Assembly: GCA_951640195.1 (NCBI GenBank)
Contig: OX621175.1
Coordinates: 248,001-312,000, forward strand
Length of the DNA: 64,000 nucleotides
Direction of reading: 5' to 3'
Source: Porpolomopsis calyptriformis
Taxonomy: Eukaryota > Basidiomycota > Agaricomycetes > Agaricales > Hygrophoraceae
Numbering within the stretch: position 1 is the first letter of the stretch; every line of letters starts with the position of its first letter. Below, in pieces: positions 19,949 to 63,706 of this stretch. The position numbers and the translations under genes were made by a program. Under the pieces are notes generated by a model, which made no database searches, was not told the DNA's origin, and worked only from the letters and a program-made list of their open reading frames with translations.

Positions 19949-21112
19949 TTACTCGACTTTCTTTCCCTCTTTCCTTTCCAACACCTCAACCCACTTCTTC
20001 GGGAACCATCCCTCTCGTCCCTCCCTAGTCCGCCCCTTCCACCACTCACTCTCCACCTCCATCCGCGGGTCCACCTCTGCCCCCGTCGTCGGGTCCAGCT
20101 TACCGACGATAGCCACAATCTCGTTTTCGTTTAGTCCGAGCTCGGCCGGGCTCGACGGCGTGAACGGGTACAGCGCACGAGCAAACGCCAGAGTGGACGG
20201 GTCCAACGGGCCTCGCTCACCCAACAGATGCGCTCCTTGTGAGGCTGCGGCGTGTTCGGACAGAATACGGATCAGTTTTGAGACGGCATAGGGAATGCCG
20301 AAGATGGCCAGGAGAAAGATGACGAGTGGCTTTTTGCTCAGTTTGGGGTGCGAGGAGGGTCCCTGGACGACGGGTCGTCCGTTGATAAATTCTCTGAATT
20401 CGGTGTGCATTTCGGTCGTTCCCCCCGGGTGGACGGCGCCGCTGCCACTAGCGCGGCCGGTGAGAAGGTCTCGAAGCCACCGCACGAGTCCAAACAGGCC
20501 GAGGACACTCCCGAGTGCGTTCCGCAGTCGGCCAAACTGGTCGATGACGCCGACCATGGCGAAGAACGATGAGTGGGTGGCCATGAACGTCGACTCGAGC
20601 ATCTGCGCTACGCCCCCGAACGTCTGCACGATCGAGTGAAGGAGGGCGAACGTCTGCTGCGTCGTCGACTCGAGAGTTTGCGTGAGGGATGGGCCGCCGC
20701 CACCGACGCCGCTGCCGGGTAATGACGGGTCAAGAGGGAGACCGTTCATGCCCCCACCCATGTAGTTCATACCGCCGTACCCACCATAGGACCCTATCCC
20801 ACCGTACGTTCCCATCCCGCCGTATCCTACGCCACCATACGATCCCAGCCCACCGTATGGGCTGAGACCGCCGTATGAGCCAATTCCGCCATATGAGGAA
20901 CCAAAACGAGAGTAAGGAGAAACACCATAGTTGGATTGTAAAGAGTTGTAAGGCGAGGTTATCACAGATGATGAAAACGGAGCAGGACGAGCGGGGACTG
21001 AGGGTTGGGATGTGGATGAAGTTGTTGGCTGAGTGGACGATGATGATGATGGTGTCGAAGTTGAGGTCGCTGCTGGGCCATTACGCTCCCAGGGCTTTGG
21101 TGGTGAAACCAT
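19949..21112 (-). CDS. PEX13: Peroxin-13, peroxisomal docking factor
   Basis: 387 residues, single exon, start MVSPPKPWERNG. PEX13 is the peroxisomal membrane docking partner of the import receptor PEX5 and of PEX14. Seen in order: a PKPWE motif at the N-terminus, a Ser/Thr/Pro linker, a Tyr/Gly-rich block (SYGGIGSYGG repeats, about 60-125), an amphipathic region with MLESTFMATHSSFFAMVGV typical of PEX13, a hydrophobic segment at about 262-281 (PLVIFLLAIFGIPYAVSKL), and a C-terminal SH3 domain at about 310-378 (ARALYPFTP, EWWKGRT, GWFPKKWVEVL). Length fits the family. I preferred 21112 over an in-frame codon 29 codons upstream because MVSPPKPWE begins the family's conserved N-terminus. The CWF19L2 stop lies 53 bases upstream on the same strand. 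Confidence 0.95.
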   Translation of the reverse strand: MVSPPKPWERNGPAATSTSTPSSSSSTQPTTSSTSQPSVPARPAPFSSSVITSPYNSLQSNYGVSPYSRFGSSYGGIGSYGGLSPYGGLGSYGGVGYGGMGTYGGIGSYGGYGGMNYMGGGMNGLPLDPSLPGSGVGGGGPSLTQTLESTTQQTFALLHSIVQTFGGVAQMLESTFMATHSSFFAMVGVIDQFGRLRNALGSVLGLFGLVRWLRDLLTGRASGSGAVHPGGTTEMHTEFREFINGRPVVQGPSSHPKLSKKPLVIFLLAIFGIPYAVSKLIRILSEHAAASQGAHLLGERGPLDPSTLAFARALYPFTPSSPAELGLNENEIVAIVGKLDPTTGAEVDPRMEVESEWWKGRTREGREGWFPKKWVEVLERKEGKKVE

Positions 21113-21165
21113 CGAAAAAAGGTATTGAATTACATAATACACCCGGCTGAGGGGATGTAGCCCGA

Positions 21166-22828
21166 TCACATGATACTCTGCTCCAATAAGCCAGTCCAAT
21201 CAAACTTGTCATACTTTGATCTGAACTTGGCAATACGGCCTTTACTGTTCCGGAGATCAAGTCGACTTGGCCGACGCCAGCGACGGGGCTCCAGTTCAAG
21301 GACATTCCCCACGATTTCTCCCGCAAAGTACCTGGAATGAAGTTAAAGCAAAAGAAACTTCACAGGCTAGAATCGTACCTTGGAAACTCGCTACCTTTCT
21401 CACTCTGATCTACATCTCCATCGTCGTGTCCAGTAGCAGCAGTACCTTCTACGACATGACCATACCCTTTCTCTCCCTTGTGGTCAAATTGAACCATAAA
21501 GTAAGGTAAATTCGGGACCATGGCGCGCCGGAACCCTCCAGGTCTAGCCGAAAAGTCGATCAACTTCTTGTGTTGTGACCATTCAGACTCCGAGTGCAGA
21601 ATTGATTCCTATCCCGCGATCGTGGTTATTTCTGGGAAATACGGCAGAAACAATGGGGAGGAGGCAATACTTGCCTTAAAATAGGCCGGAATATCATCGT
21701 ATACAGTCCACGGTAGCGGGACACATTCAATAAATGTATGTTTTTGCCATCCAAGGTTGAGCACCGTCTCGTAAAAAATCACGCCTTTGTCTTCCTCGGC
21801 AAACATACGAATAAGACATTTCATGAAATTCTGTATAGGACATCAACATCAATCACTCAAACAACGGAAAAAGACATACCTTCGTTTCGTCCCACACATC
21901 ATCATCTCCCTCCAGCATATTCAAGTGATGTTGAATGGGGACGATGAGACAATGTCCTTCCACAAGCTCTTCGTAAAGAGTGCAAGAAAGGTAAACTCGA
22001 GTTCCCAACGCGATCATCGGAGACTTGGGAGCCGAACCGTCCTCCTGAAAACAGAATGGACATTCAGCCATCACTTTTTGTGTCCGTTTGTAGTCTGAAA
22101 CACTCTCAGAATATAGCGCTCACGGAGAAAGAAAGTGAGCAGTGCTTACCGTGGAGAGCGAATTGTCGCTTGATGGCATCCGATCTCATCTTTTGTCGCC
22201 CGAGTTTGTCTGCGTTCTCGTCAATGTATTCCAAGTCATCCTTGAGACCGAGTTATCAACGACGCCGGATCAGCGCTGGAATAAAACAAAAATTCACTCG
22301 AAATTTGCCGTCTTTCATGATAGCTTGTGCAAATTGTGAATCGAGGTCATTCTCGCCAGCCGTTCGCGCATTAAGCCTTTCCTGTCGAAGCATTTGCTTT
22401 GGGGTAAGTGTGTCATCTTCTGTATCGCGAGTGTTGCGGTCTCGACTGTCCACCTGAAAAGGTCTCCGTTCAGATCGTTCATTGAACTTGGAGGAAAGTG
22501 GGACCACCTTTTGCCGCTTTCTCCGACTCCTTGAAGGGTAACTCTCATCCTTTCCTTTGCCGACGTCATAAAGCCGTCCTCGGACGTCCACCGTAGGCAA
22601 CACCTCGACGATCGTCTTTGTACCAGATGATCCTTCACCCCGTGTCCCAGACGCTTTCTCATACTCTCGTTCTAGCTGTTCTGCGTTGGGTGCATGCATC
22701 AGTTTTGCGCGGAGAACTCTGGCTTGCAGTTTATTCAAGGATGAGGGAGATAAGCTTCGCGAACGGGACCTCTTGGTCTGGGGTGTCATTCTGCGAGCGG
22801 AGGATGTGTGACCGAGTGTGACAGACAT
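21166..22828 (-). CDS. CWF19L2: CWF19-like splicing factor
   Basis: Six exons on the minus strand: 22828-22298, 22240-22150, 22094-21880, 21830-21675, 21587-21379 and 21331-21166, giving 455 residues with all phases matching. The family (yeast Cwf19/Drn1, human CWF19L2) acts in late spliceosome and intron-lariat turnover. Residues 1-177 are basic and disordered. 180-207 carry KLGRQKMRSDAIKRQFALH. 208-335 form the CwfJ C-terminal domain 1 with CPFCFQEDG, ALGTRVYLSCT and GHCLIVPIQHHLNMLEGDD (HIT-like). 335-450 form domain 2 with GFRRAMVPNLPYFMVQFDH, GYGHVVEG and ELEPRRWRRP. The fourth intron (21674-21588) has a GC donor (AAG|GCAAGT). The start codon faces that of ORC2 with two bases between. 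Confidence 0.93.
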
Positions 22829-22830
22829 AG

Positions 22831-23994
22831 ATGAATCCCGTCCGAACCTTTGACGCCTACTTCACTCAAGCATCTGCCCCCGCTCGGACGTCATCAAACG
22901 TCTTCTCCACTCTTGTACCACCGCTGAGTGAGGAGGAGCATGCTGATGCCGTGAAATCGGTTCTGTCGTCCTCGAAGCCCTTACAATCCGTCTTATGCAC
23001 CGAGTTTGTTCGCCGATCGCTCTTTCCTCGATTTTTTCGCGAATTAAACGAGGGATTCAACTTACTGTTTTATGGCTTCGGGTCCAAGAGAGCCTTGGTC
23101 AATCAGTTTGCTACAGAATGCTCCAAGAGAGGACATGTCGTTATCGTCAATGGTTTTCACCCAGATTTCGCATTCAAGCACTTGTTCCATTCGATTGACA
23201 AAATTCCCGAAATATCCTCTTTGCCGCCCGCCCCGGCTGGTCTCGAGAATCAGGCCCGACGGGTTTACGACTATTTCGGATCAGTCCCATTAAAGCCTCA
23301 CCTCTACATTGTACTTCACAACGTCGACGCCCCTCCGTTCCGCACCCCCAAAGCTAAATCTTGTTTATCCCTCCTAGCGCTCAATCCTGGGATCCATCTC
23401 ATCGCATCTGTGGATCATCTTTCTGCATCACTCATGTGGTCATCCACAGAGCTTTCGAAACGTAAATGTGGCTATGCGACCCAAGAACAAGTACCATCGC
23501 ACGGGTTTGCATGGCTAATGCACGATCTCACCACCCTCCTTCCTTATGACATTGAATTATCATACTCTGATCATGCATCTATATCGGGGGCGGCACACGG
23601 CCGGACCCGCAGGCAACGGGAGGGTGGCGGAGCTGTGTTCCAGGATGGGGCTCACATGACCGAGACTGCCGCGGCGCATATATTGGCATCTGTGACGCAA
23701 AAGGCGAAGAAACTGTTTATATTGATGGGCACGAGGCAGCTTGAGAGCGTGGAGGAAGCGGGTGATCTTGCTCTCGGCGATTTATCCAAATTTTCCATCG
23801 GGTATGACATGCTGTTCAACATCGCCCGGGATGACTTCATCGTGACGAATGATACCGCGCTGCGATCGCTCCTGGGTGAGTTCAGGGATCACGGACTGGT
23901 GATGGCCGCACAAAATAGTTCTGGAAGTGGAGAGGGCTTGTGGATACCGTTGCGGAAGGAGAGATTGTCGAACATCCTCCAGTCTTTACAGTAA
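22831..23994 (+). CDS. ORC2: Origin recognition complex subunit 2
   Basis: 387 residues, no intron. ORC2 is part of the six-subunit complex that marks replication origins and loads MCM. Seen: FDAYFTQASAPARTSSNVF at the N-terminus, the ORC2 P-loop-like motif FYGFGSKRALVNQF (80-94, with GSKR in place of GKT, normal for this non-ATPase subunit), HLYIVLHNVDAPPFR, a sensor-like NPGIHLIASVDH, and a C-terminal winged-helix region (RSLLGEFRDHGLV). The disordered N-terminal region usual in ORC2 is almost absent. Either the protein is short here or an upstream exon lies within CWF19L2 on the other strand. It is head-to-head with CWF19L2; DCP1 begins 57 bases after its stop. Confidence 0.92.
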   Translation: MNPVRTFDAYFTQASAPARTSSNVFSTLVPPLSEEEHADAVKSVLSSSKPLQSVLCTEFVRRSLFPRFFRELNEGFNLLFYGFGSKRALVNQFATECSKRGHVVIVNGFHPDFAFKHLFHSIDKIPEISSLPPAPAGLENQARRVYDYFGSVPLKPHLYIVLHNVDAPPFRTPKAKSCLSLLALNPGIHLIASVDHLSASLMWSSTELSKRKCGYATQEQVPSHGFAWLMHDLTTLLPYDIELSYSDHASISGAAHGRTRRQREGGGAVFQDGAHMTETAAAHILASVTQKAKKLFILMGTRQLESVEEAGDLALGDLSKFSIGYDMLFNIARDDFIVTNDTALRSLLGEFRDHGLVMAAQNSSGSGEGLWIPLRKERLSNILQSLQ

Positions 23995-32046: not shown

Positions 32047-35000
32047 CTAAGTAGAAACATACCAATTATTGATATTCACCAAATTTCTCAAAATCTCAGG
32101 ATATACAACATTGAGAGCTTTAGCTGCTTGTGAATTTGGAGAGAACAATACTTTGATCCTCTGACTGGATGTGCATCGGGAGAGAGCAACATAAAGTTGA
32201 CCATGAGAAAAGACAGGGATGCGTAAATCCAACCCAACATGTTGAACTGATTGACCTTGAGATTTATTGATAGTCATGGCAAATGCAAGATGAACAGGGA
32301 ATTGGCGATGGGAAAGGGGGATAGACAGGTCTTCAGAATTTGGTTCAAGGGTCATTCTAGGGATAAAAACCATTTTCCCAGCATGAGTTCCACCAAGAAT
32401 ACGACATTGGAGGACACGTGATCTAATGTTCATCAAAACCATTCGAGTTCCATTGCACAGTCCATTTGTAACATCAAGGTTGCAAAGAAGCATAAGTGGG
32501 CATCCTTGTTTTAATGCAAGATGAGCAAGGGGAAGGCCAGATCCATTTTGGGAATTAAGAAATTCAATAGTATAGCCAGGGTCTACACCTATAACCTTGT
32601 CCACACTATAATGAATAGATGTTGCACCTGGTAACATATCAAGTGTGAAGCTATTGATTTCATCAACAGTATCATTCTTGCAACAGAGAATAGTGCGATT
32701 AAGGAAGTAGTTATTTGATTTATTTCCTTCTGCTAAAGCAGGGTATATTACATTGACTAACCCAGTAACTGTATTGTTTTCAAGCTGCATAGAAGCAGGA
32801 AGGGTGATTGGGGATAGAAGTTGACCAGAACCAACTTTTAGAAGCTATACAGCAAAGGCATCACTTTCAAGGGTTTGGTCAAGACATCTATTTTCTGTTA
32901 GATGAAGGATATGAATAGATCTCCACAACCTGGATCGCTGAAGGCTAGCTCTAACAATCTGCTCCCTTGAACCTTTAAAGATAACAGGTAGGATTTGGCA
33001 GAAATCACCACCAAAAAGAACAGTTATACCACCAAATGGCTGAGGTATATCTGTTAAATCCTGTAAAGTTCTATCTAAGGCCTCAAAAGCATAACGATGC
33101 TGCATTGGAGCCTCATCCCAGATAATAATCCCTATTTGTAAAATAACAGTATGAAGATCACTACCTTTAAGGATGTTGCAAACAGAGTTGTCAAGAATAG
33201 GAATAGGGATTTTAAACTGGGAGTGAGCTATACGACCTCCAGGTAAAAGAAGGGATGCAATTCCTGATGAAGCAACACAAAGAGCCACCTTCTTTTCTGC
33301 ACAAACAGCAGAAGCAATAGCAATACAGATATAGGTTTTACCACAACCACCAGCACTATGAAGAAAGAAGGTGTCTCCCTTGTTATCATAAACAGACTTC
33401 ATAATAGCATCAAAGGCAGCTCTCTGTTGCATATTAAAAGTTGATTTGTAGTGGTTGACATCAATCAAAAGTTGAAACTCATCATAGGCAAGATGTTGAT
33501 GAAGAAGGGAATTAGTAGGAATAATATCATCCCATTGGATTTGGGGAAGAGGCATATCAGGGAAGTTAGAAAGGGATTTTCCAAATTTTGATAGATCAAT
33601 ATTAATAAGATGTAGTCCATAGTCATAAATTTGATCATTAGTGGGATTAATATAATCAGGATTTCCAAGAGCAATAATTTTATGTTTGAGATCATCACAA
33701 ATATTATGCTTATGGGTGTTCCACAATTCTTCTGGCTCTGTAGGGTTACAGTGGAAAAGAAGGGTAGCAAAAAGAAAGCAAAGTTGATACCCAAGTTGAA
33801 TCCCACCAGCTTCTTCAAGACACTGATGCCACTCTCTATTATCCTCCAACATCCCTCTAGTATTACAGGCAGCCTTATAAGTTGGAAACTCAATTCCATT
33901 GAAAGTACAAAGGTCCTTCCAATCTATAGCACCTTTAACTGCAGATAGTAGTGTCCTGAGATAGAAATGTTCCCCTTCTGTAGGCTTGACAAACATCATT
34001 CTGCCAATAGCATAGTCCTGTTTCCTGGTCTTCCATTTTAAAGCCTTTTTATCCCAAACAAAGTGTTGGGGAAAGTCCAAGTAGAGATAATTCTTAGCTT
34101 CAGGAATAGTTCTATTAGCTGTGAACCACTCTGAAAGCTGTGTCTTCTTAGCACTTTCATGTTCTAAAACATCCTCAGCAAGATCATTAGGATTATAATA
34201 AACTTGTTGTTGATCCTGAAGATGAACAGGAAGACGGTAAACAGAGGGATGCATCTCATGCATTGGAAACTCAGCCAAATGCCAATATCCTTTACAGGGC
34301 CCTATATATCTTGCATTGATAAAGTCCTTGACTTCATCCTGTTCACCAACCTCTATAGTTGCCTGATCTAGGCCCTTGTAAATATACTTGTGAATATACT
34401 TGATAGCTTTAACTGAAGAGCAAATTTCAACATTAATATGACAGTCATATTTAGCAGAGAGGTAGGGGTTATAAAGGACAACACTGCGATTATCAAAGAT
34501 ATTGCCTTGAGGATTTGTAAAGGTTTGGCCATTATTAGGTCTTGCATACTGAGGGTAGCCATCATCACCATATAAAGTTTCATTACAAAAGCTCTTTGGG
34601 TATTTTTTACTACATACTCCATCAACCATACAGGGTGCATTTGGATGATCTGGACCACAGGGACTATGAAGCATGCATTTAGTAATAGTGGCATAAAGCT
34701 TTGGATAAGCAATAGAGTTAGGGAGTTGAGCTGAGACAATATAATTAACTTGGGTAGCATCATGTATCTTGTAAGGTTCTCGAAGCCAAATAAGAATATG
34801 GTTGTGAGGCAAGTTCCTCTTTTGAAATTCAGTAGAGCAGACTATGCCTGCTACTGAACCAAATAAACCCTTTCGAATCTCTTTTATTAACTGGGCTCTC
34901 TTTAAAGTAAAAACTCTTGCAACAATATCTGGGCAATCTGAAGCATGCTGTTGTGACTGTGAATGATCTGGATGATCCCCATCACCATAATATTTAAGAA

Positions 35001-36619
35001 GTTGTTCCTGAATTTCAGGCCAATTAGGATTTGCAGTGATAGTAAGGAAAATATCTGCCTTTCCACAGTGTCGAGCAATAGCTATAGAGTCTTGGAAGTG
35101 CTGATACATACTGTGAGGGCTACTAGTATGAGAGCCAGGAAGAATGATTTTTTTCCCATGCTGACCAAGGTTTACATTTTCATTTGCATCAGCATTGTGG
35201 AGAGCATCATAGAGACCTTGATACAAATCAGCTCTGATAGTAGCCTGATTTCTCTGGATCCAGAAGAGTTCACTTTCCTCTACTGATGCCCATGCATCAA
35301 CAACATACTGTTGTAAAAGTTGACCACCACGAAAGAGATCCTGGGGCTCTCATTCTTCCTTCCTAGGATGTAAGTGATAAATAGTATAGCGCCGTTGAGT
35401 AACATTTTTACTTCTCATCTTCCCATGTGGTCCAGGGATAGAAGGGATAAGTGGGTGAAAGCTAGGGTCTCCTTGTGGAAAAAGCAAGACATAATGGAGA
35501 GCAGAATAAGATGGGTGAAGATGAGATACTCTTCTAAGACCTCCTCCTTTAAGTCTAACAATAATATCACGATCTGGTCTTCCATCTGGTCCTTCACTAT
35601 TGGGAATAATAGCTACCACTTCATCAGCAGTTGGTAGATTAAAGACTCGATGATCAGCAGTAGGCATCAAAGCTATTCTAGCTTGTAAGTTATCACATTC
35701 CTCTGGTGGTTTCTCCATAAGGATTTGATAGGCCTGCTTATATAGAGGCACATATGGATGGACCTTCAATAGCATGTCCTGAAGATTAGACATGATTGAA
35801 GGATCAAGATTTGGATTCCTTTGGCTCCTAGTAGCAAGAGCTGTTTGTGGGTCATAAATGTAAAGCTAGGCATATGATGCTTCATGATCATGGAGAGGTA
35901 AAAGGCTACCCATCTGATGATATAATCCACCATGAAGTCGGAAGGAATATGGGCCAGACCCATCTAAAACAGATACATCTAACTTTGCTCTAAAGGATGT
36001 GAAAGCAAAGGCAGCATTATATTGGCATAGGCTATCACGAAACTTTCTAGCTTGAGGTAATGATTCCCTAAGTAGCTTCTTTAAAACAGGAGGGTGACCC
36101 AAGGGGGGATCTAATATAACCTGTCCTTGAAGACAACAGGATCCAAACTTAGGGTTTAACTTTCTAGAGTTAGAAAGTCGTTCATCTTGGAAGTGAAGGG
36201 CACCACAGTGAGAACATTCCACATCCATATGTCCAAGATAATCTCAAATCAAAGGTTCAGTATAAGGTTGATAGCTAATAGGGATTTGGTTATGAATAAT
36301 AGCTAGTTGGTAATTAGCATTATACTGTTCAACTTCAGCTTGCTGCTGTTGCTCCACTTGCTCTTGACGTTCTCTAGCAAACTCTCTTTGATCCACCTGA
36401 TGCTGAAAAGCTTCATTAACATATCTCCTATCACATTCCAGGTGTAGCCTTTGTCGCTCTGCAAGCAAAGCTTCATATCGGCTACTTTGTCTAGTATGAG
36501 ACATTTGAAGGTGTTGAATAGGAGGAGGTGGTTGTGGTTGAGCCTGCCTCTGATTCTGCTGTTGGCAGACACATTCATTATGCCTAGCACTAAACCCTTG
36601 GTATAATTGTTTACTCCGG
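32047..36619 (-). pseudogene. Helitron Rep/PIF1-type helicase, five nonsense mutations
   Basis: From 36619 to 32047 the minus strand is a single reading frame interrupted only by stops at 36244-36246 (TGA), 35866-35868 (TAG), 35350-35352 (TGA) and 32845-32847 (TAG). A fifth (TGA, 52311-52313) lies in the N-terminal part beyond Gypsy A. Seen in order: a Cys/His segment (CSHCGALHF), the Helitron Rep domain with FLTITANPNWPEI and the two-His motif LPHNHI (about 34800), then a PIF1-like SF1 helicase with Walker A GGCGKT (about 33345), IIWDEAPM, GGDFCQILPV and the C-terminal TINKSQGQ and YVALSRC motifs. It would nick and unwind DNA for rolling-circle transposition. Each stop is one transition from a sense codon (CGA, CAG or TGG). 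Confidence 0.92.
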
Positions 36620-40045: not shown

Positions 40046-40412
40046 TGTCACGAACACTTTTTTCTTTTTCTTTTTAGTCATACTTGATTAGTCTCCATCC
40101 CATTCATCCTTCCACTTTACCGCTTTATATATAGAGACTAACCACATGTACCTTCCTTCCGACTCTTCACAAGTCACATTCCGTTTCCGTTATTCTTTTT
40201 GTGACTCTTCACTAGTCACATTCCAGATTCCGCTTTGTAATCGTACATACGACTGACTCATGGCGACTCAGGTAGTTAGTATATAAAGCCTGACCTCTAG
40301 TCAGTAGGTTAAGTTCGATTCCTAGTTAGCTCCCCCACTCTTTAGTTGAATTCATATTCCTTATCAGCCCCTCCAATGCAAGAAGTAAAACTTCGACTAC
40401 CAAATCATAACA
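40046..40412 (+). repeat. 5' LTR of chromovirus B
   Basis: 367 bp, TGTCACGAACAC...AAATCATAACA. It carries the TATA box and presumed transcription start described in the next entry. Confidence 0.95.
40280..40321 (+). promoter_or_regulatory. LTR promoter and self-primer of B
   Basis: TATATAAAG at 40280-40288 is followed 31 bases after its start by AAGTTCGATTC (40311-40321). That is where transcription should begin, so this 11-mer would be the 5' end of the RNA. It is the exact reverse complement of the PBS at 40414-40424. Confidence 0.75.
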
Positions 40413-40587: not shown

Positions 40588-42015
40588 ATGTCTCAAACAT
40601 CTCAACAAGAGTACGAAGCCGATCAAACCGTTCCCACACCTGGACCCAGCAACATCCCCCCTACCATCCAAGAAGAAGAAGAAGATGTCGTCCCATTCAA
40701 CATGGAACAAGAGCTCAGAGACCTAAGAGCACAAATCGACCAGTTCCATGGCTGGTACTACAACGAAGTTGACGTCAACGACGAACTCTGAAAGGAACTG
40801 AAAACTCTCAGAGAAAGTCGACAAGAAGAATCTGAACCAGCCACCCCTCCCCCACGACGACGATCTGTACTTCAGGGACCTGGACTTTCCCCCTCGAATC
40901 CTTTCATTTATCCTCCAAGAAGAACCCAATCCGTCCAACCTCCTTTCCAACCAACCTTTCCCACTCAACTACCCACCCAGACAACTGCTCCCCCCACACT
41001 TCCAGCCCCCACCAAAATCAAAATTGCCAATCCAACCGAATACGATGGAACTTCTGAGAAGCTTGAAGACTTCATTCACCAATGTCAACTCAATTTTGTG
41101 GTCAAGGACTACAACGACAAACAGAAGATCATCTACATGCTCTCTTATCTCAGTGACGGCAATCCACGGGCTTGGGGACGACTGTTCACAGAAGGAGTTG
41201 ATAGAACGAGAAATTACATATGGGACTACGCAACGTTTTTGGACAATTTTCAGGAAGCTTTCAGAAGGATTAACCCAGCGGCGAAGGCGCGGATCGAGCT
41301 AGAGAAAGTGAAGATGACAGGAACGATTGAAGACTACAACCTTCGGTTCATGCAACACGCAGCAAGAACTGAGTACAACAAGGCCGCCTTACTTCGGTTT
41401 TACAAAGCTGGACTCCCCCAGCCAATCCGAACGCGGATTTATTCGATGGACAATATGCCGTCGACCTTGCTGGACTGGACGATGAAAGCGGCCCAGTTTG
41501 AGGAACAGTACCAGGAGCAACGAGCCGAACAAGCCTTGTGGTCAAGTCGAGATCAGAAAGGAAAGAAGTCCGAAGCCAAATTGAATCCCCGAGGAAACCC
41601 TTCCCGCTCCACCACCACCACTTCATCCCCGATCAAACAAGAATCGAGAGAAGCCTCTCTTAAGACAGTGAAACAAGACAACTCCTCCATCACCTGCTAC
41701 AACTGTGGCAAAAAAGGACACTATGCCAACAAATGTCGAAGCCTGCGTGCTGAAGACGTTCCAGCATGTCAAGAGACCTCAACTTCTACTCGAGGAAAAG
41801 GAGGAAATCGCGGTCGAGGCAAAGGACGAAATGTCCGAATGATCAATCAGGTCGATACAGAAGAATCGGAAGCGCAGATAGAGGAAGTACCAGAGGACGA
41901 CGAAAAAGAGAAAAGGACGGCAAAGGACGACTTGAAGGATATGGGGATCGCGAACTGGGACAAGGAGAGACAGGCTGCGCTAGCTCAAGCATTAAAAGAG
42001 CAAAAGGATTTTTAG
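40588..42015 (+). pseudogene. Gag of chromovirus B (one TGA)
   Basis: 475 codons from MSQTSQQEYEADQ, with a single in-frame TGA at 40789-40791 (NDEL*KELK, from CGA). Acidic N-terminus with a short coiled coil (MEQELRDLRAQIDQFH), a Pro-rich linker, the Gypsy capsid domain (KIANPTEYDGTSEKLEDFI, LSYLSDGNPRAWG, FRRINPAAKARIELEKV), and the zinc knuckle CYNCGKKGHYANKC (about codons 369-382). The C-terminal tail is Arg/Gly- then Glu/Lys-rich. The pol frame (-1) is open from 41766, so gag and pol overlap by up to 250 bases; expression by -1 frameshift is possible but no slippery site was checked. Confidence 0.9.
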
Positions 42016-45000
42016 TCCAGCCAAGTGCTAAAAGCCCGAGCACTTTGGCTGTGTCCCATGTATGTGTACCACCATCTATGAAAAGTTTTCATTTTCTTGG
42101 CACACTTGAACAGGGCAAAGGTGCTCTCGAATTCTATCTTTGGATCACGAGTGCCGACAATCTTCGACGAGTGGCTATCATAGCACTCATTGACTCTGGC
42201 GCCTCAGGGAATTTTATTGACGAAGCATTCATTCGTCAAATGGAGATATCGACCTATCCGTTGGATGAGGTTGTACCGGTACGAAACGCTGATGGTTCCG
42301 AGAACCGAGGAGGTCCCATCACACACGACACAGACCTGTTTATTGAGGCACCAGATCTATCTTTTCAAGAACGAATACGGTTGGAGGTCACCAACTTAGG
42401 AAGAAAACAACAGGTCATCCTCGGCTTCCCATGGCTCTTGCGACACAACCCCACCATCAATTGGACAAAAGGCACCTTAACCTTCGCGTCTGGTAACACG
42501 CTGTTCAGTAGTATGCGAGTTGGAGTGTTGCCCCCACAGGAAGAACTCTGCGTCTTTGATTTGAGTCTGAAACATGACTCCTTTATCCGCTTGGTTGGAG
42601 TTGACCACTCCCGACCAGTTTCCATTGAGGAGGACATCAAATCCTTTATTCCCAGTCGTTACCACAATTTCTGGCGTGTTTTCCATACCGCAGAATTCGA
42701 CAAACTTCCTCCTCGATGTCCCTTTGATCATGCGATCAACCTCTACCTGAACACCAAATTTCAAGTCGGAAAACTCTATCCCCTTTCCCCCTACGAACAG
42801 GTGGAACTTAATAAGTTTATTGACGAAAATCTCAGAACAGGTTGGATACGTCCATCGAAATCGCCACAAGCTGCTCCTTTCTTCTTTGCGAAAAAGGCTG
42901 AAGAGATCAACACCAAAGGTCTCAGTGCTGGCCTACGTCCCATCCAGGACTATCGCTATATCAACTCAAAGACCATTCCTGATCGTTACCCCCTTCCCCT
43001 CTTGTCAGAAATCCTCCAAGTACCGAAGCTTGCCACTGCTTCACTCTTCACCGTTATCGATATTCGATGGGGATTTAACAACATACGACTCAAGGAAGGC
43101 GACGAATGGAAAGCAGCTTTTATCACCAATCGAGGACTCTTTGAGCCGACCATTATGTTCTTTGGACTACGAAATTCCCCAGCATCTTTTCAACGAATGA
43201 TAGACGTTCTCTTCAAACCCATCTTGGACTCTGGCTGTGTCCACATTTACATTGACGACATTCTCATCATGAGCGACACCCCTGAAGAAATTCGCCACTG
43301 GACCGACGAAACACTCAAGCTCATGGAGAAAAACCAATTATCCGCCAAACCCGTCAAATGTCAAATGGAGAAGACCTCTGTTACCTATCTTGGTACAATC
43401 ATCAGCAAGGGTCAACTCGCTATCAATCCAAAAAAGGTAGATGCCATCATTAATTGGCCGACACCCCAAAAATTGCGAGATCTCCAATCCTTCCTTGGCA
43501 CTACCAACTTTTGGCGCCGTTATATCAAAAGCTTCTCCTCAGTCGTTCGTCCCCTCTGTGGCCTTTTACGAAAAGACCAACCTTGGGATTGGTCTCCTCT
43601 GTGTCAGAAAGCCTTTGAACAACTCGAACATCTTGTCACTACAGCCCCTGTCCTTCTTACCCCGCGACCAGACCTTCCTTACCTCTTGGAGACCGATGCC
43701 TCTGATTTCGGTATTGGCGCGGTCTTATCTCAAAAACACGACAATGGTTGGCACCCTGTTGGCTTTTGCTCAAAATCCTTACTCCCTGCCGAGTACAACT
43801 ATCCTACCCATGATCTGGAAATGCTTGCAATCATCACTTCCCTCAAGTATTGGCGCTATCTTTTAGAGGGCGCAAGGGATACTGTATTGATAAAAACGGA
43901 CAATTTAGCACTCAAATATTTCATGCAGAACAGATCCCTCTCCAGATGACAAGCACGTTGGATGGAATTCTTAGGCAGATTCGACTTCAAAATCGAGTAT
44001 TCCCCTGGAGTCAAGAACAAAGCAGATAGACTCTCTCGCCGACCCGATCACCGTCATATAGAGAAAGAAGAATTAGAAGGCCAAGCCCTCCTCCCTCCCG
44101 AACGTTTTATCAATGCTATCATTTCCATGTCCGAACCCTCTTTCATATCAAGACTTCGCTTCCCCGACTTCAATCAAATCCCAGAGGACATTCGCATCAA
44201 ACTATCCGATCCCTCTTCTGGCTACTCCTTCACTGACAGAATTGTGAGAGATGCAGGAGATCGTATTGTCATGCCAGCGGACGTATCGCTACGCACAGAG
44301 ATAATTCGATTGACCCACTCCCTACCCCATGGAGGCCATCCCGGAATTGAGAAGACACGTGAGCTTGTGTTGCAGAACTACACCTGGAGTAGTGCTGCCC
44401 CTGACATCCGTGTATTTGTATCATCCTGTCCGACCTGCCAACAAGTCAAGCTTTATCCTTCAAAGCCTGCAGGTCTCCTGGAACCCATTCCCCCTTCGTC
44501 TCGACCTTGGGAAGAAATCACCGCTGATCTAATTGTGGAACTCCCCCAATCATCTGGCTACAATGCTGTCTTAGTCGTTGTCGATCGCTTTACCAAACGC
44601 GCTCACTTCATCCCGACGACTTCAAATATTTCTGCAGAAGGAGTTGCAAAACTCTTCAGGGACAATGTATGGAAACACCACGGCTGGCCAAAGAAGATCA
44701 TAACCGATCGAGGAACTCAATTCGCTTCCAAATTCGCGAAAGCTCTCAACGCTCATTTGGGAATCATCTCTGGTCTATCCACCACTTATCATCCCCAAAC
44801 TGATGGTCAAACGGAACGCACCAATCAAGAACTTGAACAATACCTTCGTTTATATACAAACTTTATGCAAGATGATTGGTCCAACTGGCTATCCCCAGCT
44901 GAATTCGCGTATAACAACCGACAACACTCCTCAACGAAACACACTCCCTTTTACCTTGATACTGGCCAACATCCCTTCGTGCCATCTATTCCCGCGACCC

Positions 45001-45572
45001 CTACTCCCAACCCCGCAGCAGATGCCTTTCACGATCATCTCACAGAAGCCCGTGAAGAAGCCACAAAAGCTCTGGAAACAACGGCCGAAACCATGAAACA
45101 CTTCGCAGATCGCAAACGGAAAGATACCGAACTCCAAATAGGTCAATTTGTTTATCTTGATACCCGTAACTTAAAAACAGGTCGTCCAACCCTCAAACTT
45201 GATGTCCGACGCACTGGACTATTCAAAGTTCTAGAAAGAATCGGAAAAGTCTCTTATCGCCTGGCCCTTCCGTTATCATGGAAAATACACGACATCTTTC
45301 ACGTTTCACTCCTGAGACCCGCTAACATTAACTCCGATCTCCATCCAGAAGAAGTAGACGATAATCTCCGCCCACCTCCAGATGTTATTCAAGAGAAAGA
45401 AGAATATGAGGTCGAACAAATTCTCCAACACCATGGGTCTACCCGGCGTCGTACGTATTTGGTCAAATGGGTTGGCTATCCCATTGAAGAAGCAACTTGG
45501 GAGCCGAAGAAGAACCTCCATGTGAAAGAACGAATTCTAGAATACGAACAATCAATTCAAATGGCAACCTAA
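42016..45572 (+). pseudogene. Pol of chromovirus B: PR-RT-RH-IN-chromodomain (one TGA)
   Basis: One frame with a single TGA at 43947-43949 (CGA to TGA at SLSR*QARW, between RNase H and integrase). Protease ALIDSGASGNFID (about 42186). RT with LRPIQDYRYINS, FTVIDIRWGFNNIRL, FFGLRNSPASFQ and an intact YIDD (43248-43259). RNase H LLETDASDFGIG. Integrase HHCC (HSLPHGGHPG ... CPTCQQVK) and DD35E (TADLIVELP, IITDRGTQF, YHPQTDGQTERTNQELEQYL), then a GPY/F-like region and a chromodomain (EYEVEQILQHHG, YLVKWVGYPIEEATWEP, 45409-45510). The chromodomain should read methylated histone H3, steering integration to heterochromatin. Apart from the TGA it looks functional. Confidence 0.93.
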
Positions 45573-45696
45573 TCATTCTTTCACGGTATCAACTCCCCTC
45601 GTTTATATTTTTCACCTTTGTCACCTTTTCCAAACTCTGACTCATCCTTATAATCTCTTTCATCTCCATCTTTTACTCTCAAAAATTGACATCGCT

Positions 45697-46275
45697 ATGC
45701 CCGCAGAATGCTCACACCAAACTGCTCGCAAGTCTACTGGTGGTCGTCCACCCTGTGCTCCTCATATGTCCACTGGAGGACAACCCCCTCATCGCGCTCT
45801 CCCTCCGCTCACTTCCACCTCCTCCGCCTATGGTGAAGCTGAGCTCGCCGGACAACTCTGGCAGCATAACCGACGCGCACATAATCGGGACCTTCCCATA
45901 TGGCCAGAGGAAATCGTCGCACCACCCATCCCACCTGAGCAAATCATCGAGTCGTTGCAGAAGGACATCGAATACTACAAGAATGAAATCGCAAGATTAA
46001 ATGAAGAGTTGTATAATCAAGGAATGAGCTTGGACAGAAAGAGAAGAGCGAGTGAATATTGGCGAGAACAGGCCAAGCACTGGGAGGCAAAATACGAGGA
46101 AGTCGCAAAGGTACTTCCCCATCTCAATTCCCCCGCTCCCCCTGTTTTCCCAGGTCCGCTCATCGTTCCCCCCAGTTTGTCGTCAAACCCCATCACCATC
46201 CCCGACGACGATGATACTTCCCTGGCCGACATTATTTCCCTGTCAACTGCCGTCTCCAACAAGGACTTATCCTAG
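45697..46275 (+). CDS. ORF3 of chromovirus B: histone H3-tail-like peptide plus coiled coil
   Basis: 192 residues, sense strand, 124 bases after the pol stop and 80 bases before the 3' LTR; intact. The N-terminus MPAECSH-QTARKSTGG-RPP contains nine residues identical to histone H3 Q5-G13 around K9 (ARKS). A weaker second copy follows (M-STGG-QPPHRAL, residues 24-35), aligned to the same H3 segment with Met at the Lys position. Then a Pro-rich spacer, a charged coiled coil (about 78-145; QIIESLQKDIEYYKNEIARL, EYWREQAKHWEAKYEEVAKV), and a Pro/Ser tail with DDDDTS. No transmembrane segment or zinc finger. It is not a standard Gypsy protein. A role as H3K9 mimic is inference; chance resemblance is unlikely for a nine-residue match in register. 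Confidence 0.75.
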   Translation: MPAECSHQTARKSTGGRPPCAPHMSTGGQPPHRALPPLTSTSSAYGEAELAGQLWQHNRRAHNRDLPIWPEEIVAPPIPPEQIIESLQKDIEYYKNEIARLNEELYNQGMSLDRKRRASEYWREQAKHWEAKYEEVAKVLPHLNSPAPPVFPGPLIVPPSLSSNPITIPDDDDTSLADIISLSTAVSNKDLS

Positions 46276-46355: not shown

Positions 46356-46722
46356 TGTCACGAACACTTTTTTCTTTTTCTTTTTAGTCATACTTGATTA
46401 GTCTCCATCCCGTTCATCCTTCCGCTTTACCGCTTTATATATAGAGACTGACCACATGTACCTTCCTTCCGACTCTTCACAAGTCACATTCCGTTTCTGT
46501 TATTCTTTTTGTGACTCTTCACTAGTCACATTCTGGATTCCGCTTTGTAATCGTACATACGACTGACTCATGGCGACTCAGGTAGTTAGTATATAAAGCC
46601 TGACCTCTAGTCAGTAGGTTAAGTTCGATTCCTAGTTAGCTCCCCCACTCTTTAGTTGAATTCATATTCCTTATCAGCCCCTCCAACGCGAGAAGTAAAA
46701 CTTCGACTACCAAATCATAACA
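46356..46722 (+). repeat. 3' LTR of chromovirus B
   Basis: 367 bp; differs from the 5' LTR by about eight transitions and no indels. Followed by the ATCCC duplication and then Gypsy A pol. Confidence 0.95.
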
Positions 46723-46727
46723 ATCCC

Positions 46728-49700
46728 GGAGATTTTCTTTGGCCTCAGGAAAGGGCTCTCCTTCACGATTTCATGAGAAAGCAAGATCTCGCCTTCACCT
46801 GGAACGACTCTGAACGAGGACGCTTCAGATCTGACTTTTTCCCTCCCGTCAACCATCCGGTCGTACCACATACGCCTTGGGTGCAGAAGAATATTCCAAT
46901 TCCCCCAGGGATCTACCACAAAGTATGCAAAGTTATCCAGCAAAAAATTGACGCTGGTGTCTACGAACCCTCGAACTCCTCCTACCGATCGCGATGGTTC
47001 ACCATTCTAAAGAAAGGAGGGAAAGAACTTAGAATCGTTCACAGTCTCAAACCACTCAATCAAGTCACGATTCAACATTCGGGAGTCATGCCAATCCCTG
47101 AACACTTGGCCGAACAGTTCGGCAGTCAATCCTGTGGCGCTATGTTCGATCTTTACGTTGGATATGACGAACGAGTGATCGCACCTTCATCTCGCGATCT
47201 AACCATGTTCCAAACACCCTATGGGGCTCATCGACTAGTTACCCTACCCATGGGATGGACGAATTCCGTGCCCGTTTTTCATGATGACGTCACCTATATC
47301 CTCCAACCGGAGATCCCTGAGTTCACAATCCCCTATATCGACAATATCCCTGTGAAGGGTCCCGCGACTCAATATCTATTACCTGATGGATCCTATGAAA
47401 CAATTCCTGAGAACGATGGAATTCGACGATTCATATGGGAACACTTTGGGAATCTCAATCGAATAGTCCAGTGAATGAAATATTGTGGTGGAACGATGTC
47501 AGGCTATAAATCGTTCTTGTGCACAGAAGAAACCACCATTCTCAGACACCGATGTACTCACTTAGGATGACTACCGGACAAATCGTGTGTCTCAGCAATC
47601 CGAAACTGGGGTCCTTGTAAAGACCTCTCCGAAGTTCGAGCCTTCCTTGGCATGATCAGCGTCATTTGAATATTCATTCGCAACTTCGCGCATCAAGCAC
47701 ACCACCTAGTCAAGCTCACTAGGAAGGATATGCCTTTCGAATTCGGTCCTGATCAACTGGCCGCTCAAGAGGACCTAAAACAAGCTCTTCTAGAATCGCC
47801 CGCTCTACGAGTCCTCAATTATACTTCTGATGCTCCAGTCATACTCACCATTGACACCTCATATATCGCTGTTGGCTTTCATCTCTGCCAATGCGATCCC
47901 GACGACCCCAAGAAACAGTACTATAATCGATTCAGTTTGATCACATTGAACGATCAAGAAAGAAGGTTCTCTCAGCCGAAACTCGAAATCTACAGTCTCT
48001 ATCAAGCCTTGCAATTGCTCCAACTCTACCTCATTGGTGTTCGGAACCTCATTATAGAAGTCGATGCCCACTATATCAAGGGAATGCTAGCGAACCCAGA
48101 CATTGCACCTCAAGCCAGTATTAACAGATGGATCATAGCGATCCTCACATTCCATTTTACTTTAGTACACGTTGCTGGTTCGAACCATGGTCCCGACGGT
48201 CTCTCTTGATGTCCCCGACAGTCTGATGACCAAGACGATGAAGAACCGATTGATAAAGACTTTGACGATTGGATTGATCGCGTCCACGGACTAATGCACC
48301 ATATCAACAATTCACCCATGCCCTGAACAAAACCCCTCCGAATGCCCACCTCAGTTTACTCGCAGAGTAAACATTTCAGTGAGGAGGAGGAGGATCCTAT
48401 CCACCAACGTACCGATTCATACAACATTGTTCCACGATCGGAAGCAGCTCAGCAAGACAATCGACAACTTATCCTCATTTGCAAATGGCTCTCAGATCTT
48501 GAACGACCGCGCAACATGTCCGACAGTGACTACGTGAGTTTTATATGATACTGCGAAGAGTTCTTTATTGACAACCACCGACTATGGCGAAAGGATAGAC
48601 AAGGAGCTCATAAATTAGTCATCAATCCGGATCGCCGATTAGCGATCATGATGGAACTTCACGATCGAACAGGTCACAAGGCTATCTTCGCTACCTGATC
48701 AATTGTTTCTAAATACTTCTGGTGGCCTCATATGGCCCCTGACATAGTCTGGTTCGTTCGGACGTGTCATACCTGTCAGGTTCGCCAAACCACGCAAGCC
48801 CTCATTCCTCCGACCGTCTCCACGCCAGCTCCCCTATTTGCCAAAATCTACGTCGACACTATGCATATGCCCCGATCCAGCCCATTTCGATATATAGTCC
48901 AAGGGCGATACTCCCTCACCCACTATCCCAAATTTCGAATGCTTCATTTGGAAACAGCAAAATCAATTGGCGAGTGGATCTTTGAAGATATAATCTGTCG
49001 ATGGGGCTCTCTTTGAGAAATCGTCATGGACAATGGAATAGCTTTCTTAGGAGCCATTGATCACCTCGCCAAACACTATCGGATCAACCACATTCGCATT
49101 AGCAGATACAACTCTCGCGCGAATGGAATAGTCGAATGATCTCACTTCGACATACAACAATCGCTATTCAAAGCCGTCGATGGCGATCAGAAGCAATGGT
49201 CGATTGGAGCCTACTCTGTATTCTGGGCTGAGCGTGTCACTACCCGAAAGCAATTGGGATGCTCACCCTACTTCACCATCACTGGATCTCAGCCATTGCT
49301 TCCTCTAGATATTTCTGAAGTGACATATCTCCTTCCTGCTCCAGATTCGGTTCTGTCGACGACTGACCTAATTTCGCAATGCGCGATCGCCCTACAAAAA
49401 TGAGATGCCGACTTAGAACAACTTCGATTGAAGGTTCTCACTGCTTGCCTACGATCCGCCATTTGATTCAAGAAGAAACATGAGAAGACCATTCGCGACT
49501 ACGACTTCAAGACTGGGGATCTCATACTCATTCGGAACACGAAAATCGAGAAGTCTCTCAATTGGAAGATGTGTCCTCGATACCTAGGACCCCTGGTCGT
49601 GATATCTCGAAACCTAGGGAAAGCTTATATCGTCGCAGAGCTCAACGGATCTGTCTTACATCGCCCAATCGCTGCATTTAGAGTCATCCTATACTTCGCT

Positions 49701-59956: not shown

Positions 59957-62900
59957 TCAATAGTCAGGTCTGGGTTTCTCTGGATAAGCGGAGTGGAACT
60001 CCGAGATGAGTTCCAAAGCATGTCCTAGCTCAGTAGTGAGGATCCATGAGGTTTCTTCGTCGGTACCTTCATAGCCTTCCCGATGAACCAAGTACAATAA
60101 TTTGCATAAGCGATGCCTATTATCAATCTTCGAGTCTAGGATTTCGGAGATCTCGAACTCCAGTTCTCCGTCTATGATTACCGGAGGAGGCGGAGGTTGT
60201 ACTCAGTTCAGAATCGTATTTGGTGAGGCTGGTTCCAACTGTGATACATGAAAGACAGGATGGATAGCTTTCATGGAACTAGGCAAACGGAGAGTATAGG
60301 AATGGGTTCCAACTTGGGCAATAACCTTGAAAGGACCTAAGTTCTTCTCCGAGAGTTTCTTGGAGGGTCTGGTAGTTCAGAAAAACTTGGCCTTTACGAA
60401 GGCTTGAGTTCCTATTTCGAAATCAGGGGCTGGAATGCGCTTTAAGTCAGTGTAGTGCTGATAACGCTTTTGAGCTTTGGAGATGGTATTTCGGAGTTCG
60501 GAGTGGAGTTCATCCAAATCAACAGCTAGTTCTCTGGCTCGAATGGAAGTAAGATCACACTCAGGGTGTACTGAAATATTTGGATAATAACCCTTGTTGG
60601 CAAAAAAAGGGGATATCCCAGTAGTAGCATTCGGAGCATTGTTATATGCGAATTCCGCAATAGCCAGGAGATGGGACCAGTTATCCTGTTGATAGTTACA
60701 ATACATCCGTAGGTATTGCTCCAAGGTTTGATTGACTCGTTCAGTTTGTCTGTCACCTTCTGGATGATACCCGGAGGTAAAATGGAGACGCATGTCAAGG
60801 ACTTTACCCAATGACTGGAAAAAGCGGGAGACGAACTCTGAGCCTCAGTCACAGGTGACATGTGAGGGAACTCCATGTTTGGAGAATACATGGACAAGGA
60901 AAAGTTGAGCGAGTTGAGGAGCAGTGATGGTGTCGAAGGTTGGTATGAAAATAGCTTGTTTGGAGAATTGATCAACAATGACAAGAATAGCAGAGAATTC
61001 ATCGGAGTTAGGGAGTTGCTCGATGAAATCCATGGAGATGGAATTCCAAGGTTTCTCTGGAATTGGGAGTTGCTTGAGCAAACCATAAGGTCAATGGTGA
61101 GGGACTTTGGACCTAGCGCACATAGTACAGGAGTTACAGTAGTCCTTTACAAAGGTCCGGAGTTCCGGCCATGTGTATTCTCATTGGATCAATTCAAGCA
61201 TTTTGTTTTGACCGAAATGACCAGCAATTGGATGATCATGTTTCATACGCAAAATTTGAAGTTGTAAGTCATGATGAAGGAAACCAAAAGTGTCGATAGT
61301 CCATCGGAGATCAGAGTTGGCATTGGAGTTGGCCTCGGAGTTGGACTCCACAACCTTCAGATGCTCCATAGCCACTGGATCATCATGAAGTGAATTCTGA
61401 ATTTTCGAGTGGAGGGAGTCTACATTCATAATGAATGCAGCCTTTAACACTGGATCCAATAAGGATAAAGCTCGTAGGGATGAAGCCAGTTGCTCTGAGG
61501 TAAAAACTGGTTGGAGGTTCTGGGGGTTGATACTGGCGTAGTCGCTATCCCCCTCTTTAAGGTTTATATCATACCGGCGTGTTAAGAAGTCTGGTTTTGC
61601 TCCGAGTTTTCCAGGGTGAAAATGAATGACGAGATTAAAGCCCAACAAAAATTCAGGCCAATGAGCCTGATGCCATGACAGGAGTTTGGTTGTAGAAAAG
61701 TATACCAAATTCTTGTGATCAGTGACAATGTCAACTGGGTCAGAAGAGCCTTCAAGGTAATAATGCCAATTGCGAAAACTATCATGAATGGCTAATAGCT
61801 CCTTGTCATGAATATCGTAATTCAACTCCAGTGGAGTTAAAGTCCGAGAGTAGAACGCAATGGGATGTAATGATTCATCATCAGCGTAAGTTGATAAGAT
61901 GCCTGCTATGGCGTAATCGGAGGCATCTGTTTCTACCACCAGACAGGATCCCAGAGTGAAGTTGACAAGAACAGGAGTGGAAGTGAAGGCCCGTTTCAGA
62001 GATTCAAATGCGAATTTGCACTGAGTATCGAAATTCCATGGAACATTCTTCCAGGTCAGTCGCGTAAGCAGAGATACCAATCCCAAGTAGTTATTGATAA
62101 AATGCCTATAGAAATTTCCAAAACCTAAGAATAATTGGACATCCTTGATTTTCCATGGTTCTGGCCAATCCAGGATAATTTGAACTTTGGCAGGGTCCAT
62201 GGTAATTCCACCAGGGGAAAGGATAAATCCAAGGTATTCAATCATATCTTGATGAAAGAAACATTTTTCCAGTTTTCCGAAAAGGCTGTTGAGTTGGAGT
62301 CTTTGGAGTACCTTGCAGACATGTCTCCGGTGATCCGCAACGTTATCCGAGTAGATAAGGATATTGTCCAGATATACTACAACGGAGATATCAGAGAGGT
62401 CAGAGAAAATCTCATTCATGAAACATTGAAATGTTGATGGGGCATTGCATAGACCTAGGGGCATAACCAAGAATTCGAAAGCACCATACCTGGTATGGAA
62501 AGTGGTTTTCCATTCATCCCCTCCCGTGATTCATACATTGAAGTATCCAATTCATAGATCGATTTTGGTGTAAATATGACCTTTGCTGGCACGGTCCAGG
62601 AGATCGGAGATGAGTGGAAGTGGGTAACAATCTTTCTTGGTGATTTTATTGATGCCTCGATAGTCCATGCATAATCGTAATGAGCCATCTTTCTTGCGGA
62701 TGAAAACAATCGGAGCACTGCCCGGAGATCCGGAGGAATGTATCCAACCTTTTCTAAGGTGCTCATCCAAGAATATATGAAGGGCTTCTTGTTCCGCAAC
62801 AGAAAGAGAATAGATGCATCCTAGTGGAGGTGTCATACCTTCCTCTAGATCAATATGGTGATTGCTATAATGATGAGGAGGAAGACGCTTAGATTTTCCT

Positions 62901-63706
62901 TCACTCAAAACATCAGCATAGTCATGATATTCTGGAGGAACTTTCGCATAAAACGTAGGGTCCAGAGGAACATTGGAGATGTTGACAGAACATGCTTTCG
63001 CAATATCAGCAGTTTGAAGAATGAATGACTGAGATCCTTCTTGCTTGCTAGCATGTACAAATGCGGCTGCCGAAATAATGGACACAGGAGGAAGTGAAGT
63101 CAGAGCTGGAGTCAGAGCTGGAGGGTCAAGCGGAGTTGCCTCGGAGGGCTTAAGTGTTGACGACGAAGACGAATACATCGGTTTTGGTGTCCCAAATGAA
63201 ATACTGCTTGTAACCCAGTCAATCAATGGATTGTAGCGGGTAAGCCAGTTGAATCCAAGAACAGCAGAACAAGATGCATCCAATGGAGTGACCAAAAACT
63301 CAATATCTAGAGTTTCTCCAGATGGAAATTGGACAGGGAGGATAACTCCCAAATCAATGGTTCTCCCTTGAGATCCATCAAATAATTGGAGTTGCTTTGG
63401 AGGAAGCGGAGATGTTTTGAGCTTGTTTCGATGGACAAAGTCAAAGTCCAAGAAACAATGCGTGGATCCTGAATCGATAAGAGTCAGAATAGATAACGAA
63501 TCGATAAATAAAGTGATTAAAAAGGAATCAGAGCAAGGAACGGAAGCATTGAGCTTTACAATAGAAGACGCAGGAATGGTTTCAATGCAGTCCACATTCT
63601 GCGTCTCATGCAGACTGCCTCCTATTTTTCCGGAGTGGCCGGAGGGGCGCTCGGAATAGCAGTAGGGGATTCCTGAGTGGGTGGTTCGGCGACAGTAGTA
63701 GCACAT
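59957..63706 (-). pseudogene. Pol of Gypsy D: PR-RT-RH-IN, six TGA stops
   Basis: One continuous minus-strand frame with TGA at 62552-62554, 62531-62533, 61181-61183, 60845-60847, 60377-60379 and 60203-60205, each at an expected Arg codon. Protease TLIDSGSTHCFLD (about 63480). RT: FIRKKDGSLRLCMDYRGIN, YTKIDL, VMPLGLCNAPSTFQ, and YLDN where YLDD is expected (AAT 62365-62363). RNase H VVETDASDYAIAGIL. Integrase: CTMCARSK, ISMDFIEQLP, HVTCD-GSEF, YHPEGDRQTERVNQTLEQYL. C-terminus with HPVFHVSQLEPA and a chromodomain-like GTDEETSW, ending in TGA at 59957. Non-functional as sequenced. Confidence 0.92.

Follow-up and report, generated by a model that had tools for sequence, protein, structure and literature searches.

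A chromovirus of the fungus Porpolomopsis calyptriformis, here called family B, encodes an accessory protein, ORF3, that repeats nine residues of histone H3 around lysine 9 without a mismatch, downstream of an integrase ending in a chromodomain. The near-unchanged state of this motif in dozens of copies suggests that the element plugs into host silencing. From the sequence comparisons presented below, we consider it somewhat probable that ORF3 is a true H3K9-type mimic, which would engage the host H3K9 methyltransferase and chromodomain readers, with a net blunting or redirecting of silencing.

The element and the histone H3 match in ORF3

The window, that is, the whole stretch of DNA analysed, comprises 64,000 nucleotides (OX621175.1, positions 248,001-312,000), and coordinates given without a contig name refer to it. 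The order of protease, reverse transcriptase, RNase H and integrase, together with the flanking LTRs, identifies a Ty3/gypsy chromovirus with the following features.

40046..40345, + strand: 5' LTR, direct repeat with 98% identity to the 3' LTR (differing at 6 of 300 positions)
41098..42015, + strand: gag region with a zinc knuckle (Pfam zf-CCHC, 8.5e-6; Retrotrans_gag, 6.1e-4, below the curated cut-off)
41766..43949, + strand: protease, reverse transcriptase and RNase H ORF (Pfam RVP_2, RVT_1, RT_RNaseH)
43962..45572, + strand: integrase ORF with zinc-binding domain, core, SH3-like domain and chromodomain (Pfam)
45405..45551, + strand: chromodomain with a Y/W/Y aromatic cage (Pfam Chromo, integrase residues 482-530, E 5.7e-12)
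45573..45696, + strand: spacer of 124 nt between integrase and ORF3, 73% pyrimidine, with no AG and no ATG
45697..46275, + strand: ORF3, accessory protein of 192 aa, between integrase and 3' LTR
45718..45744, + strand: motif 1, QTARKSTGG, ORF3 residues 8-16, matching H3 residues 5-13 in sequence
45763..45801, + strand: motif 2, second repeat unit, ORF3 residues 23-35, HMSTGGQPPHRAL in the window copy, found by self-alignment, with lysine replaced by methionine
45934..46122, + strand: long helix, likely a coiled coil, ORF3 residues 80-142 (AlphaFold2 model)
46356..46655, + strand: 3' LTR, direct repeat partner of the 5' LTR

The gag frame of the window copy has a stop codon further upstream, and ORF3 starts at the first ATG downstream of the integrase stop. 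Just 3' of the 3' LTR, positions 46656-46730 are identical at 68 of 75 nucleotides to the sequence just inside the 5' LTR. By eye, pol-like sequence seemingly occupies 46656-48209, and a second internal region seems to share the 3' LTR at 46356-46655. The window also holds, at 32845-35226 (-), 2246-3799 (-), 61181-63706 (-), 22831-23994 (+) and 19949-21199 (-), a Helitron helicase, a tnp2 transposase and another Ty3 pol, as well as the host ORC2 and peroxin 13 genes.

The identity of QTARKSTGG at ORF3 residues 8-16 to H3 residues 5-13, claimed in a sequence-only reading of the window, was confirmed at nine of nine positions against three H3 genes of the host. Two of these genes carry MARTKQTARKSTGG within one exon, and in the third QTARKSTGG follows an intron. 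The composition of ORF3 leads one to expect about 7e-8 exact 9-mers in common with the H3 N-terminus for each ORF3, and local alignment of the N-terminus of the window ORF3 with H3 scores 53, against 21 +/- 4 for shuffled sequences. A degenerate DNA pattern for the 9-mer matches 70 places in the 33.5-Mb genome, 67 of them in ORF3 matches and the remaining three in the host H3 genes, and the reversed pattern, searched as a control over the whole genome, has no match. The genome pattern with its reversed control, the shuffles and the composition expectation together reject a chance match, and the 67 ORF3 places reject a feature of a single copy. The shorter ARKSTGG pattern finds the identical 70 places (reversed control, 2), so that no other frame of the genome was found with the motif, intron-split motifs escaping such a search.

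ORF3 gave no histone hit at E up to 1 and does not classify as a histone-fold H3 protein. An AlphaFold2 model built from an 11-row alignment predicts a confident helix at residues 80-142, with pLDDT of 94-98 for residues 81-130, which supports the coiled coil proposed by the sequence-only reading; this helix probably oligomerises. In the same model, residues 1-17 and 20-42 have pLDDT below 50. Near the C-terminus, ITIPDDDD (residues 166-173, 46192-46215) resembles a SUMO-interacting motif.

Conservation of motif 1 and its methionine-bearing duplicate

A genome search listed 128 ORF3 matches, fragments and family D relatives counted in. Among the fetched copies, 85 were aligned to the window ORF3, and all nine motif columns are present in 83; of the other two, L035b has no N-terminus, and L080 has four stops and does not cover the Q column. 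Copies were taken as intact (n=58) if residues 1-188 contain no stop and no more than two residues are absent. The sequence-only reading depended on the motif being present in other copies, and it is: the exact QTARKSTGG is found in 63 of the 83 copies (49 of 58 intact), in 14 DNA versions, and ARKS in 66 of 83 (51 of 58 intact). Of the 84 copies covering the place equivalent to H3K9, 83 have the lysine, all intact ones included; the sole exception is the decayed L080, which reads N. Likewise, Q, T and A are kept in 58 of 58 intact copies. The equivalent of R8 is lost in seven of the 58, and R has become H or C in 16 of the 20 inexact motif copies, as expected from CpG decay in a CGC codon. 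Outside the motif, residues 17, 20, 21 and 23 are variable, and the equivalents of K4 and K14 differ from H3.

Changes were also counted on the ORF3 tree, with CpG sites left out and site classes judged by transitions from the window copy. Motif 1 has 0.5 nonsynonymous versus 4.57 synonymous changes per non-CpG site, and ORF3 outside both motifs 1.06 versus 4.45; the comparison of the two regions at nonsynonymous non-CpG sites gives P 0.097. When CpG sites are counted as well, motif 1 is undercut in the number of first- and second-position changes by 16 of 184 nine-codon windows, and in the ratio of these to third-position changes by 47 of 184. Not being extreme among ORF3 windows, motif 1 is thus shown to be constrained mainly as part of a constrained protein. 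Judged by its sequence, ORF3 as a whole is a maintained protein. The test of motif against remainder that the sequence-only reading had proposed therefore finds constraint on the whole and none clearly greater on motif 1, for which the indication of a stronger constraint is suggestive only.

These patterns also bear on a neutral or structural explanation, by which a piece of H3 captured by chance serves only as a basic disordered tail that helps nuclear import or binds RNA or DNA, the coiled coil being the reason why ORF3 is kept. Such an explanation agrees with a constraint that covers all of ORF3 rather than the motif alone, and with the low model confidence of the tail, as is usual for disordered tails. 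However, exact T, S, T, G and G are unnecessary for a basic tail, and the lysine and the residues beside it persist in spite of variation at residues 17, 20, 21 and 23. Of the 182 nine-residue windows in ORF3, only 8 exceed motif 1 in mean identity. Moreover, in the L078 subfamily, whose ORF3 is 74-75% identical to that of the window, QTARKSTGGRPP survives intact though the neighbouring repeat has eroded. We therefore hold the neutral explanation to be very improbable.

What is kept can be compared with the needs of enzymes that act on H3K9. The Neurospora methyltransferase DIM-5 needs H3 R8-G12 in vitro and not K4 or K14, and A7M is marked as reduced in the summary table (PMC3248561). ORF3 keeps the R8-G12 stretch needed by DIM-5, and has the K4 and K14 equivalents changed. 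As known from HP1 structures, chromodomain readers need Q5-T6-A7 of H3, all of which are kept in ORF3. The simplest reading of motif 1 is that of a peptide that would be under constraint to be both written and read.

A weaker copy of the type STGG..P..AL had been noted at residues 25-35. The copy is present, as STGGQPPHRAL, but calling it weaker understates the relation, because residues 23-35 align to motif 1 and repeat residues 11-22 in tandem; the two units of L026 read RKSTGGRPPRAP and RMSTGGQPPRRAP. Self-alignment of the two motifs exceeds shuffles in five of six copies tested (P 0.002-0.009), for which an unrelated echo is rejected; in the sixth, the diverged L078, the repeat is undetectable (P 0.28). 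Methionine stands at the lysine place of motif 2 in all 58 intact copies and in 81 of the 84 copies covering it. It is preceded by R in 30 of the 58 intact copies and by H in 28, RMSTGG being read in 35 and HMSTGG in 37 of 83 copies. Nine of 84 copies depart from the glycine pair. Three of these carry STER, among them L078 and L079, which read HMSTER, so that the K-to-M motif is not kept in all subfamilies. The constraint on motif 2 is indistinguishable from that on the rest of ORF3 (P 0.43). Motif 2 resembles an H3K9M-like unit eroded in some copies. An alignment of motif 2 to H3 residues 29-40 was also considered by eye.

The methionine raises the alternative that the RMSTGG unit jams the host H3K9 methyltransferase in the manner of H3K9M, motif 1 offering it a further place to dock. 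H3K9M is a dominant block to H3K9 methylation, and its binding to Clr4 and G9a depends on SAM (PMC5030085); K9L, K14R and K14Q are semi-dominant in Neurospora (PMC3248561), and the K14 place of motif 1 reads R, C or H in ORF3. The tandem K-to-M copy and the methionine of every intact copy would fit such a writer trap. On the other hand, DIM-5 needs R8 while R precedes the methionine in barely half of the intact copies, the glycine pair is not always kept, L078 has no detectable repeat, and motif 2 shows no constraint of its own. In addition, the ATG of motif 2 may be a former start codon, as the family D ORF3 begins MST. Altogether we find a writer trap quite improbable as the main role of ORF3.

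As for the origin of the H3 stretch, the codon at which the ORF3 match stops, that of G13, is interrupted by an intron in all three host H3 genes (GT-AG borders, by eye). One of them, L092, has a further intron between K4 and Q5, which leaves a 25-nt exon from Q5 to the first base of G13, covering nearly exactly the stretch matched by ORF3. Motif 1 is probably an old acquisition from a host H3 exon: the exon borders suit capture, and function alone could set the same limits. Two subgroups of ORF3 were compared at third positions, those differing strongly being defined by a threshold of 0.6 of our own choice. Four of the eight strongly differing positions fall within the nine motif codons, a clustering with P 0.0016 when the group-defining codon is left out. 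The cluster of synonymous differences lies in codons 9-14 of 19 copies with the serine codon TCA. The motif DNA of one subgroup is identical to the host H3 gene L091 at 25 of 26 positions, for which P is 0.011 under element codon usage, a value that is not strong after the choice of haplotype. These comparisons give a hint of exchange of motif DNA with host H3 or between lineages.

The neighbouring chromodomain and the proposed mechanism

The chromodomain that the sequence-only reading had placed at the integrase end is recognised by Pfam Chromo (E 5.7e-12), and its best-scoring solved relative is HP1 (PDB 1kna, E 2.7e-9). Among 70 loci fetched with flanks, it is visible in 69, and the cage residues are Y in 68 (one uncovered), W in 68 (one stop) and Y in 69. 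By sequence, this corresponds to a group I chromodomain with a complete aromatic cage at the integrase end.

The genome-wide chromodomain search scored 150 of 647 candidates, so that the following counts are lower bounds. Chromodomains at least 72% identical to that of the window were assigned to family B, and those at 65-69% to a sister family, the cut being drawn after the list had been viewed. An ORF3 match lies at most 1 kb downstream on the same strand of 93 of the 95 B-type chromodomains scored; the two exceptions each have one about 7 kb downstream, perhaps owing to a later insertion. That ORF3 be maintained in related elements, on which the sequence-only reading also depended, thus holds in family B, including the L078 subfamily. 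In the sister family, no ORF3 match was found within 1 kb downstream on the same strand of any of the 55 chromodomains scored, many of which lie in long open frames (examples at G000 C2:508315 and C5:417935). A constant pairing of chromodomain and mimic is therefore rejected, and chromoviruses in general do not depend on the mimic.

A third family, D, has an ORF3 relative that is 29% identical to the window ORF3 and lacks the H3 motif. It was found at 19 places with 82-100% identity to the D query, plus fragments. The one family D integrase end scanned, which belongs to the composite element L078, gave no hit with Chromo. In L078 (G000:C1:520658-523218), the integrase end and ORF3 of family D lie about 130 nt downstream of a B-type ORF3, and the B/D pairing also occurs at matching coordinate pairs on C2, C4, C5, C9, C11 and C12. 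From these coordinates and DNA read in part (L035, L078, L079), the recurrence suggests that a recombinant B/D element has moved as a unit. The claim that one element makes both an H3K9-like peptide and a chromodomain consequently stands as a fixed layout of family B, since the motif is present in other copies and ORF3 is maintained beside the chromodomain. It does not extend to the sister family or to family D.

This layout invites the alternative that methylated K12 is a ligand for the chromodomain of the same element's integrase, which would tie ORF3 into the integration complex or hold the chromodomain closed until chromatin is met, the host supplying only the methyl mark. Of the three families seen in this genome, B alone combines chromodomain and ORF3, and the H3 motif is likewise confined to B; furthermore, Q, T and A, which precede the DIM-5 footprint, are kept in all intact copies, as a chromodomain peptide would need. 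Against this, three families are too few for a correlation, and the family D integrase was read only in the composite element. Motif 1 also includes T11-G13, a stretch that matters less to chromodomains than to methyltransferases. From the sequences compared, such a self-ligand is a possibility to which we give the second place, at fairly low confidence.

The preferred reading is that of a mimic acting on host silencing. The flexible N-terminus of ORF3 would mimic H3 around lysine 9 and be joined to the long, probably oligomerising helix. K12 would be methylated by the host Pre-SET enzyme, for which one locus of the H3K9 methyltransferase type was found in the genome. The tail, methylated or unmethylated, would then occupy the H3K9 writer, chromodomain readers or both, the readers being either the element's own integrase or host proteins of the HP1 type; a chromo-shadow search for HP1 in the host genome gave no match, and its control was equally silent. 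On the preferred reading, the net effect would be to blunt or redirect the silencing that H3K9 methylation brings about near the element. A transposon protein may not be abundant enough for competition with histone H3. A more elaborate version, in which a captured H3 exon provides an H3K9 substrate, a reader and a duplicated K9M-type decoy as one system of interference with H3K9-methylation silencing, the capture perhaps being refreshed by exchange with host H3 genes, seems to us unlikely.

How fungal retrotransposons cope with H3K9-based silencing is, in our view, largely open. An exact and conserved H3K9 peptide beside the element's own chromodomain offers a cheap and direct test, with one peptide, one lysine and one reader. 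Should methylation and binding of the peptide be demonstrated, we would know of no earlier case of a transposable element encoding both a mark-bearing peptide and its reader; should the methionine copy inhibit the enzyme, nature would have supplied an equivalent of the H3K9M effect.

Relatives of ORF3 and known systems

Outside this genome, a word-based protein search, which is weak for a short and fast-changing ORF, found no ORF3 relative at E<=1e-3 among 138 candidates, and a search with the 11-row alignment none at E<=0.01 among 2977. Related elements are represented in the protein database, where the integrase has 3974 relatives at E<=1e-10 among 7992 scored, the best at 64% identity among the 120 matches listed. 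No ORF3 was found in a collection of viral contigs, a result that says little since the integrase had no relative there either.

Several known systems resemble parts of the one described here. First, G9a, GLP, ATF7IP and SETDB1 are host silencing proteins with shorter H3 matches. Such non-histone proteins carry, like ORF3, a short H3K9-like lysine motif, and peptides of this kind can be methylated and bound by chromodomains (PMC7618375, PMC10611923). ORF3 differs from them in being a retrotransposon protein, in its nine identical residues and in the chromodomain encoded by the same element. Second, the VANC proteins of VANDAL elements are also transposon-encoded and reportedly counter silencing, but are sequence-specific proteins of Arabidopsis elements; we know of no histone mimicry in VANC. 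To our knowledge, no H3-mimic ORF lies between integrase and 3' LTR in MAGGY-type chromoviruses either. MAGGY and other fungal chromoviruses are otherwise like family B, being gypsy LTR elements with a group I chromodomain (Y24/W45/Y48), and the MAGGY chromodomain binds H3K9me2/3 (PMC3350952). Finally, EZHIP, also a non-histone protein, contains an H3 tail motif in which methionine replaces lysine (PMC12713659); motif 2 resembles this for K9. However, EZHIP comes from mammals and acts on PRC2 and K27, whereas motif 2 concerns K9, lies beside an intact K9 motif and is altered in some subfamilies.

A search of the open-access literature, judged by titles and the starts of abstracts, turned up no retrotransposon described as encoding an H3-tail mimic. 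Host proteins with H3K9-type mimicry are already known, as is mimicry of the K-to-M kind for EZHIP, and a putative H3-tail mimic of retrotransposon origin would be new. Also new here are the observations that the second STGG is a tandem duplicate with K changed to M, and that the match ends at an exon border of host H3.
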